Virus record (IMG/VR): IMGVR_UViG_3300036715_000251
Span: 1 to 22,855 of that record
DNA: 22,855 nt
Reading direction: 5' to 3' (one strand)
Origin: a virus
The first letter of the stretch is position 1, and each line of letters starts with the position of its first letter. A program made the translations under genes and the position numbers. Of the stretch, positions 3,787 through 21,752 are shown in pieces. Under the pieces are notes generated by a model. The model was not told where the DNA came from. It ran no database searches and saw only the letters and a program-made list of their open reading frames with translations.

Positions 3787-4812
3787 ATGCTATATGTTGA
3801 CGTCAAGTATGCAAACATGCTTGCTCCGCGGCTGCGAAACTACAAGCACAAAAGCGACTATCTGTGGAACTTCTCATGCCCAATTTGCGGCGATAGCTCA
3901 AAGAGTAAAACTAAAGCTCGCGGGTACATCTACAAAGCAAACACCGGTCTGTTTGTCAAGTGCCACAATTGCGGCTACGGGTCAAATCTCGGCAACTTGA
4001 TCAAGTACGTTGATCCCGCAATGTACGAGGAGTATGTTCTCGAGAATTACAAGCAGAGCGGAGTTCCTCGATCCCATCACAGCAGCACGGAAGTTGCAAT
4101 TCCGTCAATCATTAGCCGGCGAGATATCGGTGTAGATAGCATTCTACAACCTCTGAAAAGTCTTGATCGTTTGCGGCCGGATCATCCAGCAGTTAAATAC
4201 GTACTCAACCGAAAGATTCCAACGCGGTTTCTATCGATGCTGTACTTTGCTCCGAAGTTCAAGAAGTTTGTCAATACGGTGATCGCCGGCAAGTTTGACG
4301 CCGATGATAAAGATCATCCACGTTTGATCATTCCGTACTTCAACCGTCACGGCAAGTGCTTTGCATTTCAAGCAAGAGCGTTTGGCAACGAACAGCCGAA
4401 GTATTACACAATCAAAGTTGATGACAGCGAAGAGAGGATCTTTGGTCTTGACCGTGTAAACTTTGCAAAGAGGATCTATGTAACAGAGGGGCCGTTGGAC
4501 TCGTTGTTCATTCCAAATGCAATCGCGGTTTCTGGATCAACATTCAACACGCCGACGATTGAAAGTTTGAAATCGAATGCAACGATTGTCTATGACAACG
4601 AACCGCGTTCCAAGCAACTTACGAAGCTGATAGATAATACGATTGAACAAGGATTCAGTGTCTGCTTATGGCCAGAGTCGGTAACTGAGAAGGACATCAA
4701 TGAAATGGTCCTTGCCGGGAGAACTCCACAACAGATTTTGGACATTATCAATGAAAACACGTATACTGGCGCTGAAGCTAAGTTACGTTTTGCTACATGG
4801 AGAAAGTGTTAA
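3787..4812 (+). CDS. 61: DNA primase, T4 gp61-like
   Basis: 341 aa, almost the same length as T4 gp61 (342). A zinc-binding module comes first: C31-P-I-C34 and C59-H-N-C62. The catalytic TOPRIM core contains TEGPLDSLF with its conserved acidic residues (E234, D238), followed by VSGSTF and VYDNEPRSK, which should supply further metal ligands. The enzyme makes short RNA primers on lagging-strand template, working with the gp41 helicase in T4; the helicase gene is not in this window. The ATG at 3787 has a weak GAGGGA Shine-Dalgarno sequence and its own promoter 40 bp upstream. The stop overlaps the thyX ATG by one base. Confidence 0.93.
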   Translation: MLYVDVKYANMLAPRLRNYKHKSDYLWNFSCPICGDSSKSKTKARGYIYKANTGLFVKCHNCGYGSNLGNLIKYVDPAMYEEYVLENYKQSGVPRSHHSSTEVAIPSIISRRDIGVDSILQPLKSLDRLRPDHPAVKYVLNRKIPTRFLSMLYFAPKFKKFVNTVIAGKFDADDKDHPRLIIPYFNRHGKCFAFQARAFGNEQPKYYTIKVDDSEERIFGLDRVNFAKRIYVTEGPLDSLFIPNAIAVSGSTFNTPTIESLKSNATIVYDNEPRSKQLTKLIDNTIEQGFSVCLWPESVTEKDINEMVLAGRTPQQILDIINENTYTGAEAKLRFATWRKC

Positions 4813-5651
4813 TGATTGAAGCGAAAGTTATAGAGGACAGCATTAGTCCCACAGGAAAGCGGATTACGACGATTCAAGTGAAGTTTCACCGGTTCATTCT
4901 TCCAGAGTTCAACACTCACCGCGTGTTTTCTAGGAATTTCAGCTCGTCTCGAGCGATCCCGACTGCTAAGTTGATTGAACAGGTTCGAACTGATCCAGCA
5001 ACGCCCGTTCACTGGGGTAAAAATCAACGAGGGATGCAAGCGAATCAACAACTTGATCCAGCAGATTTGTACACCGCACATCGAATGTGGCGCGCCGCAG
5101 CTAACAGTGCTGCGAACTATGCAGATTCGTTGGCAGCTATTGGAGCACACAAACAGATCGTCAACAGAATCATTGAGCCGTTCATGTGGGCCAATGGGAT
5201 TGTTACATCTACCGAGTGGGACAACTGGTTTCAACTGCGCGCACACGAAGACGCGCAGCCAGAGATTCAACAACTCGCGTTGCAGATGCGACAAGCTATC
5301 GATGAATCGATTCCACGGCTGCTTCAACATGGACAATGGCATCTTCCGTACGTAACCGATGCGGAACGTAATCAAGCGGATTGCGACATGTTGAAGAAGA
5401 TTAGCGCCGCGCGGTGTTGTCGTGTGTCATATCTAAAACATGATGGACATGCGCCAAATCGCGATGATGACCTAGCGCTGTTTGATCGTCTTGCTGGTGC
5501 AGTTCCTATTCATGCAAGTCCACTGGAACACCAAGCAACACCACTGGTCGATGATAGTGATGTTGATCTGCAAGGGAATTTCAAAGGCTGGATTCAGTTT
5601 CGCAAGGTATGGGAACGGGAGATATATACCGCCCCAACAAATCAACAATAA
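4812..5651 (+). CDS. thyX: Flavin-dependent thymidylate synthase ThyX
   Basis: 279 aa from the ATG at 4812, chosen over 4797 because it forms a TAATG overlap with primase and has GGAG 9 nt upstream. The ThyX signature appears as T35-HRVFSRN-FSSSR47, matching the family pattern (R)HRxxSxNxxSxR. The enzyme converts dUMP to dTMP using methylene-tetrahydrofolate, FAD and NADPH. T4 itself uses an unrelated ThyA-type synthase. Length is slightly above the usual 220-260 residues. It lies between primase and nrdA, forming one deoxynucleotide-supply block; the dCMP deaminase at 14392 would supply its dUMP. Confidence 0.93.
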   Translation: MIEAKVIEDSISPTGKRITTIQVKFHRFILPEFNTHRVFSRNFSSSRAIPTAKLIEQVRTDPATPVHWGKNQRGMQANQQLDPADLYTAHRMWRAAANSAANYADSLAAIGAHKQIVNRIIEPFMWANGIVTSTEWDNWFQLRAHEDAQPEIQQLALQMRQAIDESIPRLLQHGQWHLPYVTDAERNQADCDMLKKISAARCCRVSYLKHDGHAPNRDDDLALFDRLAGAVPIHASPLEHQATPLVDDSDVDLQGNFKGWIQFRKVWEREIYTAPTNQQ

Positions 5652-5659
5652 GAGGTAGT

Positions 5660-7663
5660 ATGGATAACATTGTGCATGGTATTAAAGTCGATTACAGTCG
5701 CGACAGTATGTTCTCAGAGTCTGGGTTATCGCGACTGAAAGAAGGTTACATGATCGATGGGGAGACTTCCCCGCAGCAACGATTTGCATTTGTATCGAAG
5801 ACGTTCTCATCGAACGCAGAACACGCTCAACGTCTGTATGATTACAGTTCAAAGATGTGGTTGTCGTACTCAACTCCGATTCTTTCATACGGCAAAACAC
5901 AGCGATCTCTTCCGATCTCGTGCTTTGCTTCATACCTCGGCGACAGCATTCGATCGATTCTCGATACATCTAGTGAGACTCGTATGTTAGCTGTCGTTGG
6001 CGGTGGCGTTGGTCTTCATGTTGCGTTGCGGCCGGGAGATAAGAAGTCGTCTGGGATCATTCCGCATCTGAAGACGTATGATGTTGACACTCTTGCGTTT
6101 AAGCAGGGGACAACTCGCCGCGGTGCAACTGCTGCTTATCTTGATATCAATCACCCGGAGATCGTTGACTTTCTTGAAATGCGCAAGCCTACTGGCGGCG
6201 ACCCGAACCGCAAGTGTTTGAACTTGCATCACGGAGTTAATATCACCGACGATTTTATGCGTCGTGTCGAACAGCTTTCTCTTCGTGGCGCCGAACTGAC
6301 GAAAGAACAACGAGAACAACTTGATCGTTTTCCGCTTGTCAATCCTAATACCGGCGAAGTTGTTGAATACGCGTCTGTTCGCGAACTGTGGGAGCGGATC
6401 CTAACGATTCGAATGGAGCAGGGCGAGCCGTATATCTGGTTCATCGACACAGTCAACAACCATCTCCCGGAGTTTCAGAAAGCAAAAGGCCTAAAGAATC
6501 GTGGGTCAAACCTGTGCTCTGAGATCACTCTTGCAACTGACAACGATCGTACGTTTGTTTGCTGCCTGTCGTCTGTCAACCTCGAGAAGTATGATGAGTG
6601 GAAAGACGATCCGCAATTCATTCCGGACATCGTTGAGATGCTTGACAATGTGATCACAGTGTTTGCGGAGAAAGCTCGTGATTTCCCAGAGCTCAAACGC
6701 GCGATTAACTCCGCGTTGGCGGAGCGGTCGATTGGTATTGGTGCGATGGGTTGGCATGCTCTGTTGATGAGCAAGATGATTGCTTTCGAGTCGCCGATGG
6801 CTGTTGGCCTCAACAAGTCGATCTGGAGCAAGATCAAACAACAGGCGACGGAGAAAACGATCGAGCTTGCTAAACAACGTGGTCCGTGTCCAGATAGCGC
6901 AGAAGGGTCTGTTTACGACATTGTTCTCGACGACGATTCCGCGATCGAGAAATACGGGTTTGACGTCGTTTCAGTAAATCGCGATCGTGTCCAGCAGTCG
7001 GTGAAAGTTTGTGATCTCGTCAAAGGCGATACGATCGAGCTCGTTGATCGTGGCTCATCTCGGTTTACTACGATCAAATCGATCACACCAAAAACTCCTC
7101 TCGTGCGGAATAGTCACTTGCTTAGCGTAGCACCAAATGCAAGTTCGTCGATCATTCTCGACACATCCCCGTCGATTGAGCCATATCGTGCGAACGTTTA
7201 TCTCGAGAAGGGAGTTAACGGGACTAGGGTTCACCGCAACAAGTACCTCGAGAAACTGCTGGAAACTAAGCAGAAAAACACCGCGGAAGTTTGGACGGAA
7301 ATCACATCGAATGATGGCTCTGTTGCAACTCTTGACTTTCTCACTGACTATGAGAAAGCGGTTTTCAAAACGTCGATGGAAATCGATCAGACGTGGGTAA
7401 TCCAACATGCAGCAGATCGTCAACCGTATATCTGTCAAGCGCAATCGTTGAATCTTTTCTTCGACCCGACAGTAAACGTTGAGTACCTCCATCTGATCCA
7501 TTTGATGGCGTGGAAACAAGGGTTGAAGAGCTTGTACTACTGTCGTTCCGATGCAATGCGCAAGGCGGATAAGGTTGGCAAGAGAGTTGAGCGTGAGCGG
7601 ATCGAAGATATGAAAGACATGCTAAAGTCTGACGAGCCGGTATGTTTGTCGTGTGAGGGGTAA
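5660..7663 (+). CDS. nrdA: Ribonucleotide reductase class Ia, large (alpha) subunit NrdA
   Basis: 667 aa from the ATG at 5660, which follows AGAGGTAG; a GTG-type start at 5609 would overlap thyX. The subunit reduces ribonucleoside diphosphates with NrdB. Visible active-site parts are C88 (PISCFASYLGD), N284-L-C286-S-E288, the partner Cys at 301/302 (FVCCLSS), the radical-relay pair Y626-Y627, and a terminal C662-x-x-C665. There is no long N-terminal ATP-cone region, so allosteric control may be reduced. Between PCPD (residues 409-412) and RNSHLLSVAPNAS (from 483) lies an unusual segment of about 70 residues that resembles a Hint/intein beta module. nrdB follows after 55 bp. Confidence 0.95.
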   Translation: MDNIVHGIKVDYSRDSMFSESGLSRLKEGYMIDGETSPQQRFAFVSKTFSSNAEHAQRLYDYSSKMWLSYSTPILSYGKTQRSLPISCFASYLGDSIRSILDTSSETRMLAVVGGGVGLHVALRPGDKKSSGIIPHLKTYDVDTLAFKQGTTRRGATAAYLDINHPEIVDFLEMRKPTGGDPNRKCLNLHHGVNITDDFMRRVEQLSLRGAELTKEQREQLDRFPLVNPNTGEVVEYASVRELWERILTIRMEQGEPYIWFIDTVNNHLPEFQKAKGLKNRGSNLCSEITLATDNDRTFVCCLSSVNLEKYDEWKDDPQFIPDIVEMLDNVITVFAEKARDFPELKRAINSALAERSIGIGAMGWHALLMSKMIAFESPMAVGLNKSIWSKIKQQATEKTIELAKQRGPCPDSAEGSVYDIVLDDDSAIEKYGFDVVSVNRDRVQQSVKVCDLVKGDTIELVDRGSSRFTTIKSITPKTPLVRNSHLLSVAPNASSSIILDTSPSIEPYRANVYLEKGVNGTRVHRNKYLEKLLETKQKNTAEVWTEITSNDGSVATLDFLTDYEKAVFKTSMEIDQTWVIQHAADRQPYICQAQSLNLFFDPTVNVEYLHLIHLMAWKQGLKSLYYCRSDAMRKADKVGKRVERERIEDMKDMLKSDEPVCLSCEG

Positions 7664-7718
7664 CCTGTACAGTAGAACTCAGTTTGATCGCAACGTCACT
7701 ATATTGAAAAGGAATGGT

Positions 7719-8699
7719 ATGATCCAAAAGAAGAAAAAATCGCTGCTTGAACCTCGTGTTTATTACAAGCCGTTTGAGTACGAACAGGCGTACAAGTTCT
7801 ATGAAATGTCAGAGAAGATGCATTGGCTGCCGGACGAGGTACCAATGCAACAAGACGTTCTCGATTGGAAGCACAAACTGACGAAAGAAGAAAAGAACTT
7901 CCTCACTCAAATCTTCCGTCTGTTCACGCAATCTGACATTGATGTTGCCGGCGCTTATAGCACGAAGTACTTGCCGCTATTTCCAAAGCCTGAGATCAGA
8001 ATGATGTTGCTGTCATTCGCCGCTCGTGAAGCTGTTCACATCCAAGCATATTCTCATTTGATTGATACTCTTGGCATGCCTGAAACGACGTACAAGGCGT
8101 TTATGGACTACGAGGCAATGCGGGAGAAACACGACTTCATCGAAAATTTCCTTGACACGACCGATCACACTAAGATCGTCCAACAGATTGCGTGTTTCTC
8201 TGCTTTCACTGAGGGGATGCAGTTGTTTAGCTCTTTTATCATGCTGCTGAACTTCACTCGGTTCAACAAGATGAATGGGATGGGCCAAATCATTGCTTGG
8301 TCGATCAAAGATGAATCGACGCACGTTGACGGAATGACGTGGTTGTTCAAAGAGTTTCTCCGCGAGAACAAAGAGATTTGGACTGACCAGTTGAAATCTC
8401 AAGTTTACACAATTGCAGAGAAGATGGTCGAGCTTGAAGACAAGTTCATCGATCTCGCATTTGAGCTCGGCGGGATCGAGGGACTGACCGTCGACGAAGT
8501 TAAGAAGTACATTCGGTACATTGCCGACCGTCGTTTGATTGGCCTTGGGATGAAAGGGATCTTCAAGGTTAAGAGCAACCCGCTTCCGTGGGTTGAGGAG
8601 ATTATTACCGCACCAGAGCACACAAACTTCTTTGAACAACGTGCAACTGCATATTCGAAGGGCTCTTTGACTGGCGATTGGAGTAATGTGTGGAAATGA
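7719..8699 (+). CDS. nrdB: Ribonucleotide reductase class Ia, small (beta) subunit NrdB
   Basis: 326 aa from the ATG at 7719, which has AAAAGGA 5-6 nt upstream; an in-frame GTG at 7653 overlaps the end of nrdA and is less likely. The di-iron and radical residues are all present by alignment to the E. coli motif order: D73, E104, H107 (REAVH), radical Tyr Y111, E165 (FTEGMQLF), E199 and H202 (DESTH). It generates the tyrosyl radical passed to NrdA. The gene is separated from nrdA by 55 bp, with no recognisable promoter. The stop overlaps the next ATG (ATGA at 8696-8699), suggesting coupled translation. Confidence 0.95.
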   Translation: MIQKKKKSLLEPRVYYKPFEYEQAYKFYEMSEKMHWLPDEVPMQQDVLDWKHKLTKEEKNFLTQIFRLFTQSDIDVAGAYSTKYLPLFPKPEIRMMLLSFAAREAVHIQAYSHLIDTLGMPETTYKAFMDYEAMREKHDFIENFLDTTDHTKIVQQIACFSAFTEGMQLFSSFIMLLNFTRFNKMNGMGQIIAWSIKDESTHVDGMTWLFKEFLRENKEIWTDQLKSQVYTIAEKMVELEDKFIDLAFELGGIEGLTVDEVKKYIRYIADRRLIGLGMKGIFKVKSNPLPWVEEIITAPEHTNFFEQRATAYSKGSLTGDWSNVWK

Positions 8700-11453: not shown

Positions 11454-11482
11454 TTGACATTATTTCGTTGCCGTTGTATAAT
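11454..11482 (+). promoter_or_regulatory. Consensus sigma70-type promoter
   Basis: TTGACA at 11454-11459, a 17-bp spacer and TATAAT at 11477-11482: a perfect match to the bacterial housekeeping consensus. It lies 23 bp before the ATG at 11506 and probably drives that gene, RNase H and the following gene early. A small inverted repeat AATTGA/TCAATT lies over the start-site region. Confidence 0.88.
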
Positions 11483-11505
11483 TGACATATCAATTGGAGA
11501 ACATT

Positions 11506-12642
11506 ATGGCTACAACTGGACAACCTCGCGTCCGTCGCAAGCAAACGATTGAACAGTCGATGTCGATTATTCGCGGCAACGAACCGACGACAACGAAACA
11601 AAACTTCAAGTGCGATTTGATTCGCGCTCTGAATTGGTACAATGCGAATTGGGATGAATCTGCTTATCGTAAAGCTGCGGAACACTATGTTGTCAAGCAT
11701 ATGAAAATCCGCGATGCGGCATATGCTTTGTCTAAAGCTAGCAATCTCGAGATTCGCCCGATCGCAGTTATCGGTCGTTTGATCGAGCGTGAGCAGTATG
11801 TCGATCTCGATTACGTTGAACGTGTGTTCAAACAGATTGAAGATATCAAAACGAAGTACATCAAGACAAACGTCCGTGCAACTGTAGCTGATACAACTGC
11901 TAGCACTGGTGTTAGCACTGGTATGTCGATTCAAGATCGGATTACTGAGTCTGCTCGGCAGTTAGCTAGTGAGGTTGATTATGCAATCGACCAATACACA
12001 GCTGATGGGACGGAGTTCTCGATGAAGAACTTTCTGCTCGCTAATCAAGTGTCTGCAGTCGTTGCTAAAAAGATTGGCTCGTTTTATGAGCCGTTGGTTA
12101 AACAGCTCGATCAAGCAATCACAGGTAAGTGTGATCAATTGAAAGAGGGGTATAGCCAGTACACAAGACGTGGTCTTAAGCAATTTGCCGATTTTGTTCG
12201 GCAGATCGTTGTTGATTGCAATCAACACGCAGTTTCAACGAAAGCTGCACGTAAACCTCGTGCACGCAAGGCAAAGCCCGCCAGCGTTATCGTCAAGAAG
12301 CTCAGCTACATGAAGGAGTATCCGGAGCTCAATTTGAAATCGATCTCTGCGGAGAAGATCATTGGGGCAACCGAGCTGTGGGTTTATAACACTGCAACAC
12401 GTAAACTGATCGTTTACTATGGTGCTGACAACGGTTACCTTGGCGTCAGTGGAACGTCGATTACGAACTATGACGTTGAGAAGTCTAGTGTCAAGACGAT
12501 TCGCAATCCCGAGCAGTTCTTTAAAGCGCTGTCGTCAACTGGTAAGCGTGCAATCAACAATGCTTGGAAGTCGATTAGAGCAAAGACGTCGAAGCCTCGT
12601 TCGCGTATCAATGGCGACATGATTCTGTTGGCCGCAAATTAA
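11506..12642 (+). CDS. Conserved T4-like phage protein of unknown function (378 aa)
   Basis: The ATG at 11506 has TTGGAGAAC upstream; an in-frame TTG at 11482 lies in the -10 box and is excluded. I recall proteins with this layout from T4-like cyanophages and SAR11 phages: an N-terminal RRKQTIEQSMSIIRGNEPTT segment, a helical centre with DGTEFSMKNFLLANQVSA, a basic linker ARKPRARKAKPAS (about 248-260), and a C-terminal domain with ATELWVYNTATRKLIVYY. No catalytic motif is evident. The Lys/Arg linkers suggest DNA or RNA contact. Its position directly before RNase H and under a strong early promoter suggests a replication-related role, which is inference. Confidence 0.85.
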   Translation: MATTGQPRVRRKQTIEQSMSIIRGNEPTTTKQNFKCDLIRALNWYNANWDESAYRKAAEHYVVKHMKIRDAAYALSKASNLEIRPIAVIGRLIEREQYVDLDYVERVFKQIEDIKTKYIKTNVRATVADTTASTGVSTGMSIQDRITESARQLASEVDYAIDQYTADGTEFSMKNFLLANQVSAVVAKKIGSFYEPLVKQLDQAITGKCDQLKEGYSQYTRRGLKQFADFVRQIVVDCNQHAVSTKAARKPRARKAKPASVIVKKLSYMKEYPELNLKSISAEKIIGATELWVYNTATRKLIVYYGADNGYLGVSGTSITNYDVEKSSVKTIRNPEQFFKALSSTGKRAINNAWKSIRAKTSKPRSRINGDMILLAAN

Positions 12643-12660
12643 CTGACAAGGAGAGCTAAA

Positions 12661-13557
12661 ATTATCATCCTAGACTACAGCCAAGTTGCGCTGTCAACAA
12701 TCTTCCAGTTCCAAGCGGATTTGAGCAAGAGCAACACTGATCGCGCCGCGGCAGTTAACATTATTCGCCACGCTATCCTAACCGGCGTCAAGTACTACAA
12801 CAAGAAGTTTGCATCACAGTATGGAGAACTCGTACTTGCATGTGATGGCCGTTCATATTGGCGAAAAGACGTGTTCCCGTATTACAAAGCTGGACGCAAG
12901 GCAGTTCGCGACAAATCCGAGCTCGATTGGAAACTGATCTTTGACACGATCAGTGAGATTCGTGACGACATTGCCGAGCACTTTCCATATCGAGTTATCC
13001 ACAACGATCGTGCCGAGGCCGATGATATTGTTGCTACTCTATGCAAGTGGACGCAAACTAATGGATACATTGATCATGGGATGTTTGAGCAGAAGCAGAA
13101 AGTTCTGATTGTGTCGTCTGATGGCGACTTCAAACAACTGCACAAATACGATAACGTCGAGCAGTACAGTCCAATTCAAAAGAAGTTTGTCAAGTGCGAT
13201 GACCCAGTTAGATATCTTGCTGAGCACATTGCAAAAGCTGGTGATGATGGGATTCCGAACGTTCTCAGTGCAGATGATGTATTCGTTACACCAACGGCGC
13301 GACAATCGAAGATGACTGCCGCAAAGCTCGCACGTTTCGTTGAGCTTGGTCGTGATGCGTGCGAAAATGATCAACAGCGCCGGAATTGGGATCGTAACAA
13401 TCAACTGATCAACTTTGACGCTATCCCGCAAGAGATCTCGCAACAGATCATTGATAGATATGTAAATAGCAAGCCAAAAGGCGACAAGATGTCTATATAC
13501 AACTATCTGATCAAACATCAGTGTCGTTTGCTTTTGGACGAGATTGAGCAATTCTGA
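12661..13557 (+). CDS. rnh: RNase H (T4 Rnh-like 5' nuclease), apparently starting at AUU
   Basis: 298 aa, against 305 in T4. This FEN-family 5'-3' nuclease removes RNA primers and flaps from lagging strands. Metal-binding acids are all visible: D5 (IILDYSQVALST), D62 (CDGRSYWRKD), D121/D122 (AEADDIV), D154 and D156 (SSDGDF), and D195/D196 (AGDDGIPNV). No ATG, GTG or TTG occurs in frame before the essential N-terminal IILDYSQ. The first such start, TTG 12721, would delete D5. The best start is ATT at 12661, placed 7 nt after AAGGAG (12648-12653). AUU starts are rare and are known in some bacterial genes under initiation control, for example infC. A sequencing error from ATG is the alternative. 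Confidence 0.9.
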   Translation: MIILDYSQVALSTIFQFQADLSKSNTDRAAAVNIIRHAILTGVKYYNKKFASQYGELVLACDGRSYWRKDVFPYYKAGRKAVRDKSELDWKLIFDTISEIRDDIAEHFPYRVIHNDRAEADDIVATLCKWTQTNGYIDHGMFEQKQKVLIVSSDGDFKQLHKYDNVEQYSPIQKKFVKCDDPVRYLAEHIAKAGDDGIPNVLSADDVFVTPTARQSKMTAAKLARFVELGRDACENDQQRRNWDRNNQLINFDAIPQEISQQIIDRYVNSKPKGDKMSIYNYLIKHQCRLLLDEIEQF

Positions 13558-17705: not shown

Positions 17706-18959
17706 ATGTCAACGCTCGGAAACGAGATCGTAGCATCATCGGATATTCCAGACGGAATAGTAACAACTGCTAGTTTTGCGCCGAATGCTTCGAGCAAATT
17801 TGCAACTTCTCTTGTAGGAACTACTACTGCCGCTATTCCTACTTCCGCGTTAGGCAGTGGAACTGCAGATTCGTCAAAATTTCTGGTTGGCGATAGAACG
17901 TGGAAATCGATTACTGCTAATGCGGGGTATGACATTCCGTATTCATCTACTGGATACTTCGACATTTCAGCGGGAACAACTGCACAGCGGCCGTCGGCGC
18001 CTCCGCCCGGCGCATTTAGATACAATACAGCACAAAGTGTGTTTGAGATCTGGGATGGATTGTTCTGGCGTGTAGTGAACGCATTAAATGGCGGCACACA
18101 GAGAGCGATCTTTGGCTATGGAATGACTAGTTCATCATATGCGTCAATCACGAACCTAGTTTCCAGCACTGGTATCGTCGCGGCCGACACTACAGGCGTT
18201 GGCTCTGCGCGGCAAGGTCTTGCAGCAGCCAGCTATGGCGGAGATAAAGCTATATTTGGCTATGGACACAATGGATCGTCGTTCGTATCGACGACGAACC
18301 TAGTTTCGAATACCGGTGCTGTAGCATCTGACACAACAGGTGTTGGTACTGGGCGGAATGATCTTGCTGCAGCTAGCTATGGCAGAGATAAAGCTATATT
18401 TGGCTATGGATACAATGGATCGTCAAATCTATCAATGACGAACTTAGTTTCGAACACTGGCGTTGTAGCTGCTGATACTACAGGTGTCGGTACAGCGCGG
18501 CAATATCTTGCTGCTGCTAGCTATGGCGGAGATAAAGCAATCTTTGGATACGGGTACACAACCACATACGCATCAGTGACGAACCTTGTTTCGAACACTG
18601 GTGTTGTAGCTTCCGATACCGCGGGCGTTGGTACTGCGCGGCGCCAACTTGCTGCGGCGGGCTATGGTGGAGATAAAGCGATATTTGGCTATGGTTGCAA
18701 TGACTCAAATCTATCAATGACGAACCTTGTTTCCAATACTGGAGTTGTAGCTTCCGATACAACAGGTGTTGGTACAGCGCGATATCAACTTGCTGCCGCC
18801 AGCTATGGTGGAGATAAAGCGATCTTTGGATATGGATCTACTGGATCGAATGTATCAGTGACGAACTTAGTTTCCAATACTGGAGTTGTAGCTTCCGACA
18901 CGACAGGTGTTGGTACAGCGCGGAATAGTCTTGCAGCTGCCGGGTATTCGTTCACTTGA
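17706..18959 (+). CDS. Kelch-like repeat tail-fibre protein A (6 repeats)
   Basis: 417 aa. The N-terminal part (residues 1-132) has fibre-type motifs: MSTLGN start, LGSGTADSSKFLVGDRTWK, then STGYFDISAGTTAQRPSAPP, and FRYNTAQSVFEIWDGLFWRV. From residue 133 come six tandem repeats of about 47 residues, pattern KAIFGYG-loop-S-TNLVSNTGVVA-DTTGVGTAR-x-x-LAAA-YGGD. The repeats look like Kelch-type propeller blades with the conserved Trp missing. Such beta-propellers often bind sugars, so host-receptor recognition is a reasonable inference. Two paralogues follow at 19005 and 20496. The ATG at 17706 is one base after the previous stop and has no strong ribosome site (GAGGTTTCTTAAT). Confidence 0.82.
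   Translation: MSTLGNEIVASSDIPDGIVTTASFAPNASSKFATSLVGTTTAAIPTSALGSGTADSSKFLVGDRTWKSITANAGYDIPYSSTGYFDISAGTTAQRPSAPPPGAFRYNTAQSVFEIWDGLFWRVVNALNGGTQRAIFGYGMTSSSYASITNLVSSTGIVAADTTGVGSARQGLAAASYGGDKAIFGYGHNGSSFVSTTNLVSNTGAVASDTTGVGTGRNDLAAASYGRDKAIFGYGYNGSSNLSMTNLVSNTGVVAADTTGVGTARQYLAAASYGGDKAIFGYGYTTTYASVTNLVSNTGVVASDTAGVGTARRQLAAAGYGGDKAIFGYGCNDSNLSMTNLVSNTGVVASDTTGVGTARYQLAAASYGGDKAIFGYGSTGSNVSVTNLVSNTGVVASDTTGVGTARNSLAAAGYSFT
18102..18956 (+). repeat. Six tandem Kelch-like coding repeats (copy A)
   Basis: Six units of about 141-144 bp, recognisable at DNA level by conserved GGAGATAAAGC and TTTGGCTATGG or TTTGGATA cores. The repeats differ most just after the TTTGG(C/A)TA core. Confidence 0.9.
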
Positions 18960-19004: not shown

Positions 19005-19826
19005 ATGTCAACTCTTGGAAATAAATCGTCATCGCCGCCGTCTGATGGCTCAATAACAACATCGAAGTTTGCATCAGACGCAACGATTCCAGCAACCAAT
19101 GCAATCGTTGGGACTAGCACTGCCAATGTTTCTACTCTCGCATTGGGTAGTGGGACTGCCAATACAACAACATTTCTACGCGGCGATAGAACATGGGCGA
19201 CAGTCAATGCGGGTATATTTCACGACACTCCGTATTCATCTACCGGATATTTTGACGTCCCGGCGGGAACAACTTCGCAGCGACCGTCGTCGCCTCCTGT
19301 TGGCGCGTTTAGATACAATACATCGCAAAGTCAGGCTGAAGTATGGGATGGAGTGATTTGGCGTGTAGTGCCACTGTACAGTGGCACACAACGAGCTATC
19401 TTCGGCTATGGATACAATTCGTCAGCTGGCGCCGTATCAATGACGAACCTCGTTTCGAATACCGGTGTTGTAGCTGCTGACACGACGGGCGTTGGTACTG
19501 CGCGGCAAGGTCTTGCTGCAGCCGGCTATGGTGGAGATAAAGCGATATTTGGCTATGGCTACAATGGGTCATCGTACGTATCAATGACGAACCTCGTTTC
19601 GAATACCGGCGTTGTATCATCTGATACGACAGGTGTTGGCTCTGCACGGCAAGGTCTTGCTGCAGTCGGCTATGGCGGAGATAAAGCTATATTTGGCTAT
19701 GGCTACAATGGGTCATACCTATCAATGACGAACCTTGTTTCGAACACCGGCGTTGTTGCTGCTGATACTACAGGCGTTGGTACAGCTCGGTATGGTCTTG
19801 CTGCAGCTGGGTATTCTTTCACTTAA
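19005..19826 (+). CDS. Kelch-like repeat tail-fibre protein B (3 repeats)
   Basis: 273 aa, a shorter paralogue of the proteins at 17706 and 20496. The N-terminal part keeps the same motif order: LGSGTANTTTFLRGDRTWA, STGYFDVPAGTTSQRPSSPP, FRYNTSQSQAEVWDGVIWRV. It then has three repeats (from residue 130) and ends GYSFT, as copy A does. GGAGGAC lies 6-10 nt before the ATG at 19005, the strongest ribosome site of the three. Having exactly half the repeats suggests either an unequal-crossover deletion or a propeller built by two chains. Receptor binding is inferred. Confidence 0.82.
   Translation: MSTLGNKSSSPPSDGSITTSKFASDATIPATNAIVGTSTANVSTLALGSGTANTTTFLRGDRTWATVNAGIFHDTPYSSTGYFDVPAGTTSQRPSSPPVGAFRYNTSQSQAEVWDGVIWRVVPLYSGTQRAIFGYGYNSSAGAVSMTNLVSNTGVVAADTTGVGTARQGLAAAGYGGDKAIFGYGYNGSSYVSMTNLVSNTGVVSSDTTGVGSARQGLAAVGYGGDKAIFGYGYNGSYLSMTNLVSNTGVVAADTTGVGTARYGLAAAGYSFT
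19392..19823 (+). repeat. Three tandem Kelch-like coding repeats (copy B)
   Basis: Three units of about 141-147 bp, closely matching repeats of the neighbouring fibre genes at DNA level. The stop lies right after the third LAAAGYSFT. Confidence 0.9.
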
Positions 19827-20495: not shown

Positions 20496-21752
20496 ATGTC
20501 AACGTTAGGAAACAAAAGTTCCACTGCATTTTCGATATTAGCTGGCTCGGTAACATCAAATCAACTTGATCCATCTGCAGTTGTTCCAAACGCTGTCGCT
20601 GTCACTGGAACTACGACTTCTGCTATTCCCGCTACTGCGTTGGGCAGTGGAACTGCTGACGGTACTAAAATATTGAGAGGCGATAGAACTTGGGCTGCTT
20701 ATTCCGGCGGGGACAGTTACGACACTCCAATAAGTTCGACGGGGTATTTCTATGTTTCACTTGGAACAGCTTCGCAGCGACCGTCATCTCCTCCTATTGG
20801 CGCGTTTAGATACAATACAACGCAAGGTGTGTTTGAGATCTGGGATGGAACGATTTGGCGTGTAACGTATGCATCATATAGTAGCACGCAGAGAGCGATC
20901 TTTGGATATGGCCAAAGTGGATCGTCATATCTATCAATGACGAACCTTGTTTCCAACACCGGAGTTGTTGCTACTGACACTACAGGTGTTGGTACCGCGC
21001 GGCAAAGTCTTGCTGCTGCCGGCTATGGTGGTGATAAAGCGATATTTGGCTATGGTAATAATGGAGCACCTGCAACAGCTTTATCAATGACGAACCTAGT
21101 TTCCAACACCGGCGTTGTAGCTGCTGATACAACAGGTGTCGGCACAGCGCGGCATAGTCTTGCTGCCGCTGGCTATGGCGGAGATAAAGCAATCTTTGGC
21201 TATGGTTATGCAGGTGGATATGTATCAATGACGAACCTTGTATCCAACACCGGCGTTGTAGCTGCTGATACAACAGGTGTTGGCACAGCGCGGAAGTATC
21301 TTGCTGCTGCTGGCTATGGTGGAGATAAAGCTATATTTGGCTATGGTTTCAATGGAACTCTATCCATGACAAACCTTGTTTCGAACACCGGCGTTGTTGC
21401 TGCTGATACAGCAGGTGTCGGCACAGCGCGGTACGGTCTTGCTGCTGCTGGCTATGGCGGAGATAAAGCAATCTTTGGTTATGGATACAACGGATCGTCA
21501 AATGTATCAATCACCAACGTTGTTTCGAATGTCGGTGTCGTCGCGGCCGACACGACGGGTGTTGGTACTGCGCGGGAGTATCTTGCTGCTGCGGGCTATG
21601 GCGGAGATAAAGCGATATTTGGCTACGGGTATACATCCGCAGAAGTATCAATGACGAACTTGATCTCAAACACCGGCGTTGTAGCGGCCGACACGACGGG
21701 TGTTGGTACTGCGCGCGCTTATCTTGCTGCGGCTGGGTATTCGTTGAACTAA
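20496..21752 (+). CDS. Kelch-like repeat tail-fibre protein C (6 repeats)
   Basis: 418 aa, paralogous to the proteins at 17706 and 19005. The same N-terminal module (LGSGTADGTKILRGDRTWA, STGYFYVSLGTASQRPSSPP, FRYNTTQGVFEIWDGTIWRV) is followed from residue 133 by six repeats and ends GYSLN. The repeat start falls at the same residue as in copy A. The loops after FGYG differ strongly: QSGSSYL, NNGAPATAL, YAGGYV, FNGTL, YNGSSNV and YTSAEV. The ATG abuts the previous stop, with GGAGAAG just upstream. Receptor binding is inferred from the repeat type and context. Confidence 0.82.
   Translation: MSTLGNKSSTAFSILAGSVTSNQLDPSAVVPNAVAVTGTTTSAIPATALGSGTADGTKILRGDRTWAAYSGGDSYDTPISSTGYFYVSLGTASQRPSSPPIGAFRYNTTQGVFEIWDGTIWRVTYASYSSTQRAIFGYGQSGSSYLSMTNLVSNTGVVATDTTGVGTARQSLAAAGYGGDKAIFGYGNNGAPATALSMTNLVSNTGVVAADTTGVGTARHSLAAAGYGGDKAIFGYGYAGGYVSMTNLVSNTGVVAADTTGVGTARKYLAAAGYGGDKAIFGYGFNGTLSMTNLVSNTGVVAADTAGVGTARYGLAAAGYGGDKAIFGYGYNGSSNVSITNVVSNVGVVAADTTGVGTAREYLAAAGYGGDKAIFGYGYTSAEVSMTNLISNTGVVAADTTGVGTARAYLAAAGYSLN
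20892..21749 (+). repeat. Six tandem Kelch-like coding repeats (copy C)
   Basis: Six units of about 138-150 bp. Length changes sit in the segment coding the loop between FGYG and S-TN. The framework DNA is nearly identical to copies A and B, suggesting gene conversion between the three genes. Confidence 0.9.

Follow-up and report, generated by a model that had tools for sequence, protein, structure and literature searches.

The window analyzed here is the whole of a 22,855-base virus record (IMGVR_UViG_3300036715_000251), which, judged by its gene content, appears to stem from a T4-like phage. The features considered below belong to the rnh gene and its immediate upstream region, and their coordinates are listed in Table 1. 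By family, the rnh product is a T4-type RNase H with predicted exo/flap nuclease activity. Profile searches place both PF02739 (1.5e-13) and PF09293 (4.6e-7) over their cut-offs, so that the two domains that define this type of enzyme, 5_3_exonuc_N and RNaseH_C, are present; phrog_107 matches the product as well (1.4e-42), and phmmer aligns it to the T4 RNase H structures 1tfr and 2ihn, with E = 1.5e-35 for the former. The T4 enzyme (Rnh) shares family and domain order with the product encoded here, and its residue D19, an N-terminal metal ligand, aligns with D5 of the latter. Unlike the window protein, T4 RNase H is extended at its N-terminus, with about 14 residues ahead of this motif; we know of no AUU start for the T4 gene.

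Table 1. Positions of the rnh gene and of the features around its start in the window.
Feature	Position	Strand	Remarks
rnh, T4-type RNase H / 5'-3' flap exonuclease	12661..13557	+	298 aa from ATT 12661; PF02739, PF09293, phrog_107, 1tfr/2ihn
ATT (AUU) start codon	12661..12663	+	aligned with GTG/ATG starts of L002-L007; ATT also in second assembly
Shine-Dalgarno AAGGAG	12648..12653	+	7-nt spacer to ATT; predicted SD:anti-SD duplex -8.5 kcal/mol
GAC (codon 5), counterpart of Asp D19 in T4 RNase H	12673..12675	+	phmmer alignment to 1tfr
TTG, earliest canonical start in the rnh frame	12721..12723	+	rejected as start: no SD-like sequence upstream; homology and coding-type substitutions reach further upstream
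In-frame TAA ending upstream gene 11482-12642 (phrog_11903)	12640..12642	+	18 nt before ATT

Elsewhere in the window, the translations of 4797-5651 and 5609-8699 form a nucleotide-metabolism run that resembles the large and small subunits of ribonucleotide reductase and a ThyX-type thymidylate synthase. Three related genes (17706-18959, 19005-19826 and 20496-21752) share an N-terminus (MSTLGN...) and carry repeats of the kind GGDKAIFGYG...TNLVSNTGVVAADTTGVGTAR; they probably encode diversifying surface or tail proteins rich in repeats.

The start codon of rnh

A preliminary description of this DNA had proposed that rnh starts at an AUU codon placed at the usual distance from a ribosome-binding site. 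The coordinates it gave for the TAA, a CTG at 12643, the AAGGAG, the ATT and the 7-nt spacer all hold, and so does its statement that no ATG, GTG or TTG separates the in-frame stop from the conserved start of rnh, the first such codon being the TTG at 12721. The proposed start itself is upheld by several lines of evidence. The starts of the six nearest relatives, with 61-73% protein identity, align column for column with the ATT, and inspection of that column, which the description had suggested, reveals GTG in one of them (L002) and ATG in the other five (L003-L007). Codons 2-20 of the window differ from those of the relatives by 8-10 synonymous versus 3-5 non-synonymous codons, with 11-13 third-position changes. 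This stretch hence evolves as coding sequence and is translated, which confines the start to 12643-12666, upstream of the TTG, and within that interval only the ATT combines a normal Shine-Dalgarno (SD) spacing with the homologous position. The AAGGAG motif also precedes three other genes of the window at exactly 7 nt (ATG 1462, GTG 17357 and ATG 21779), implying that this geometry is the phage's own. With an ATT at the homologous start, no canonical in-frame codon upstream of it and a well-placed SD, rnh displays the sequence traits of a natural AUU-start gene, and on these grounds it is almost certainly translated from the AUU at 12661.

Initiation at some other nearby codon is, by comparison, very improbable. 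The TTG at 12721 has the merit of being a canonical start codon, but its use would disregard the coding-type evolution of codons 2-20 and, as had been pointed out in the preliminary description, delete the first catalytic Asp, since D5 aligns with D19 of 1tfr and is retained only if translation begins upstream of codon 5. The CTG at 12643 lies upstream of the SD, and the ATC at 12664, although its 10-nt distance from AAGGAG is still usable, is off the homologous start by one codon. Still less credible is a fusion of the upstream protein to RNase H through readthrough of the TAA at 12640 or a frameshift: the upstream gene does share the rnh frame and ends close to the ATT, but the distance to the upstream stop varies among other ATT-started rnh genes, the relatives have ordinary starts at the homologous position and a fusion would leave the SD unexplained. 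The TTG, the CTG and readthrough were accordingly all rejected. A sequencing error or a pseudogene, conceivable in a metagenomic contig, can be dismissed for practical purposes, because a second assembly (IMGVR_UViG_3300035182_000101), with 3 mismatches in 7,001 nt and none at the site, carries an identical ATT and makes a base-call error very unlikely, the 298-codon frame is intact and the feature is shared by many contigs and one isolate.

Recurrence of AUU among T4-like rnh genes

IMG/VR was scanned with the conserved N-terminal motif of rnh while varying codon 1. An ATT at this codon was found in 67 contigs, all of them confirmed as true rnh by profile search, while the joint scan for ATA and ATC returned 4 contigs, of which 3 were rnh, all with ATA. 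No ATC was thus found at rnh codon 1 in IMG/VR, nor any CTG in a separate scan for this codon, which is not covered by the KTG pattern used for GTG and TTG. The scans retrieved at least 120 matches for ATG and at least 120 for GTG/TTG. An internal isoleucine would be encoded by ATC and ATA too, and the bias toward ATT therefore marks it as a start codon. Of the 67 contigs, 39 have no in-frame ATG, GTG or TTG between the upstream stop and the ATT. The other 28 do have one and are ambiguous cases: in many of them the upstream GTG or ATG overlaps the SD or lies directly against it, which makes it an unlikely start, and in 11 (the L085 type) translation probably begins at an ATG located four codons before the ATT.

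AUU starts are nonetheless a minority. Among 79 start-visible loci of a start-blind sample, ATT is the likely start only in L071 and in the locus of the window's virus (L001). Since 2 of the 38 motif-matching ATG contigs in that sample recur among the 120 listed ATG matches, a very rough estimate suggests some 2,000 ATG cases, with ATT accounting for a few percent. On a FastTree phylogeny of rnh proteins, from which the start residue had been excluded, the 23 strict full-length ATT proteins require 20 start-codon changes, and well-supported branches make at least 14 of these unavoidable. The inclusion of all ATT sequences raises the two figures to 29 and 21, respectively, indicating that ATT arose or was lost many times. 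A search of genome contigs for relatives found none.

The arrangement is also present in an isolated phage. Synechococcus phage BUCT-ZZ01 (ON615601.1) has the same ATT configuration, acAAGGAGaatcaaaATT, its rnh start region reading acAAGGAGaatcaaaATTATACTCTTAGAC (L404:3001-3028), and its annotated coding sequence begins at the GTG of codon 10, losing the catalytic Asp. In Caulobacter phage Cr30 (KF301602.1; L397:151-202), ATA occupies the start position and annotation from codon 18 again removes this residue, and in phiM12 (KF381361.1; L394:151-160), with a TTG start, the annotation drops three residues. The public rnh annotations of BUCT-ZZ01 (likely ATT), Cr30 (ATA) and phiM12 (TTG) hence appear to be truncated, and the first two records illustrate how gene calling can deprive proteins with AUU or AUA starts of their first catalytic residue. 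The other ten isolates compared have ATG, GTG or TTG starts, the alignment of S-B68 beginning two codons past its annotated ATG. The host of BUCT-ZZ01 is a model cyanobacterium, S. elongatus PCC 7942, which makes the AUU claim testable.

The strength of the SD varies with the start codon. The mean predicted SD:anti-SD energy is -7.0 kcal/mol for strict ATT genes, against -5.7 for TTG, -5.1 for GTG and -3.4 for ATG. In about 7-8 of 13 phylogenetically independent, supported ATT/ATG pairs the ATT member has the stronger SD, and in no pair does the ATG member (sign test, median p 0.008-0.016); equivalent pairs of ATT with GTG or TTG show no significant difference. The contrast can be appreciated between close relatives, with an ATT locus (L110) reading ...gactgaggtgtaag and an ATG locus 80% identical to it (L068) reading ...aattaatgagtaaataaag. 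The spacing between SD and ATT shares its peak value with that of GTG starts, and predicted mRNA structure around the start reveals no clear difference for ATT genes. In one ATT clade (L137:35-50, L110, L128, L136 and L140) the GAGGTG ribosome site of rnh is immediately preceded by a short inverted repeat, CCCC...GGGG, which is absent from the ATG relatives (L068-L070 and L075-L076).

AUU initiation as a putative attenuator of RNase H synthesis

Near-cognate start codons are known to give lower yields and to be policed by IF3 (PMC5472188, PMC13009471). In this context, we propose, with a probability of about 0.72, that AUU initiation, which has recurred in these genes and is rescued by a strong SD, dampens the synthesis of RNase H and makes it subject to IF3-dependent fidelity. 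The AAGGAG, with its spacer of 7, would position the initiator tRNA on the near-cognate AUU, yet initiation would be inefficient at each ribosome encounter and sensitive to IF3. RNase H would thereby be kept scarce, at a level tied to ribosome and IF3 status, and the phage might benefit by avoiding an excess of 5' nuclease at replication forks. Given the pattern of AUU preference over ATA, ATC and CTG and of stronger SDs, it seems reasonable to regard the AUU start as probably selected for its attenuating effect. The pairing of a strong SD with a weak codon would suit a gene tuned through initiation fidelity, but specific IF3 tuning of rnh during infection is a more tentative proposition, which we consider somewhat less likely than not.

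The main rival accepts the AUU start and denies it any regulatory role. T4 RNase H is functionally redundant with host Pol I, and if the phage enzyme were partly dispensable for this reason, weak codons could drift in neutrally. The scattered distribution of ATT and its many changes on the tree are in line with such a process. Drift, however, should have brought in ATC and CTG too, neither of which was seen in the scans, next to three ATA, and it predicts no link with SD strength, when the strongest SDs are precisely those found at ATT. Neutral drift is therefore disfavoured and, in our judgment, rather unlikely.

Natural AUU starts are, to our knowledge, known for only a few bacterial genes, infC being the classic case. 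The association of this rare start with IF3 in infC, invoked in the preliminary description, agrees with the literature: like rnh, the infC gene of E. coli starts at AUU, and it is regulated through discrimination by IF3 (PMC5472188 and references therein). Unlike rnh, infC is autoregulatory, IF3 acting as a repressor at the codon of its own gene; no feedback loop is expected for rnh, whose product is a DNA-replication nuclease and whose start codon switches often between relatives. A parallel may also be drawn with pcnB of E. coli and with cvfC1 and ccpN of S. aureus (AUU/AUA), in which a near-cognate start limits an individual gene for an enzyme or a regulator, as proposed here for rnh, and in S. 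aureus these starts combine extended SDs with reduced yield (PMC13009471). These genes are chromosomal and the S. aureus starts have been described as conserved, whereas the codon of the phage gene has been repeatedly gained or lost. The Streptomyces sigR gene, with a non-canonical and misannotated start like that of rnh, has been experimentally shown to be repressed by IF3 (PMC5472188), but it involves a different codon (GTC) and a sigma factor instead of a phage nuclease. A non-exhaustive literature search, which left out most subscription journals, found no earlier report of an AUU start in a phage rnh gene. If the present reading is correct, the many switches of a phage replication gene to AUU, with a matching increase in SD strength, would amount to a comparative experiment, performed by nature, on the choice of start codon, and would point to a possible link between initiation fidelity and phage replication.

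Among the starts inferred in 3.0 Mb of phage loci, which were fetched around rnh and over-represent this gene by design, ATT appears almost only at rnh and at a protein of phrog_385. A survey outside rnh based on the SD alone detected no excess of ATT (22/1,093, the mean over all codons being 2.5%), and a general use of AUU by these phages was rejected on the basis of both surveys. The phrog_385 family comprises transcriptional regulators, and the protein in question is small and begins (I)PTYxF. A scan with ATT, ATC or ATA at its first codon yielded one false match and 18 real ones, 16 contigs having ATT and 2 ATC, and all 18 lack an upstream canonical start. It is tempting to speculate that T4-like phages have converged on AUU with a strong SD as a means of control, repeatedly adopted by at least two families (rnh and phrog_385), whose output would track host IF3 and free-ribosome levels during infection, although we deem this broader notion doubtful. 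The phrog_385 loci are L406-L422 and L047 (e.g. L408:5235-5266 on the minus strand and L047:4098 on the plus strand), the ATC codons being those of L420 and L421, and L408 carries an ATT-started rnh together with an ATT-started phrog_385 gene.
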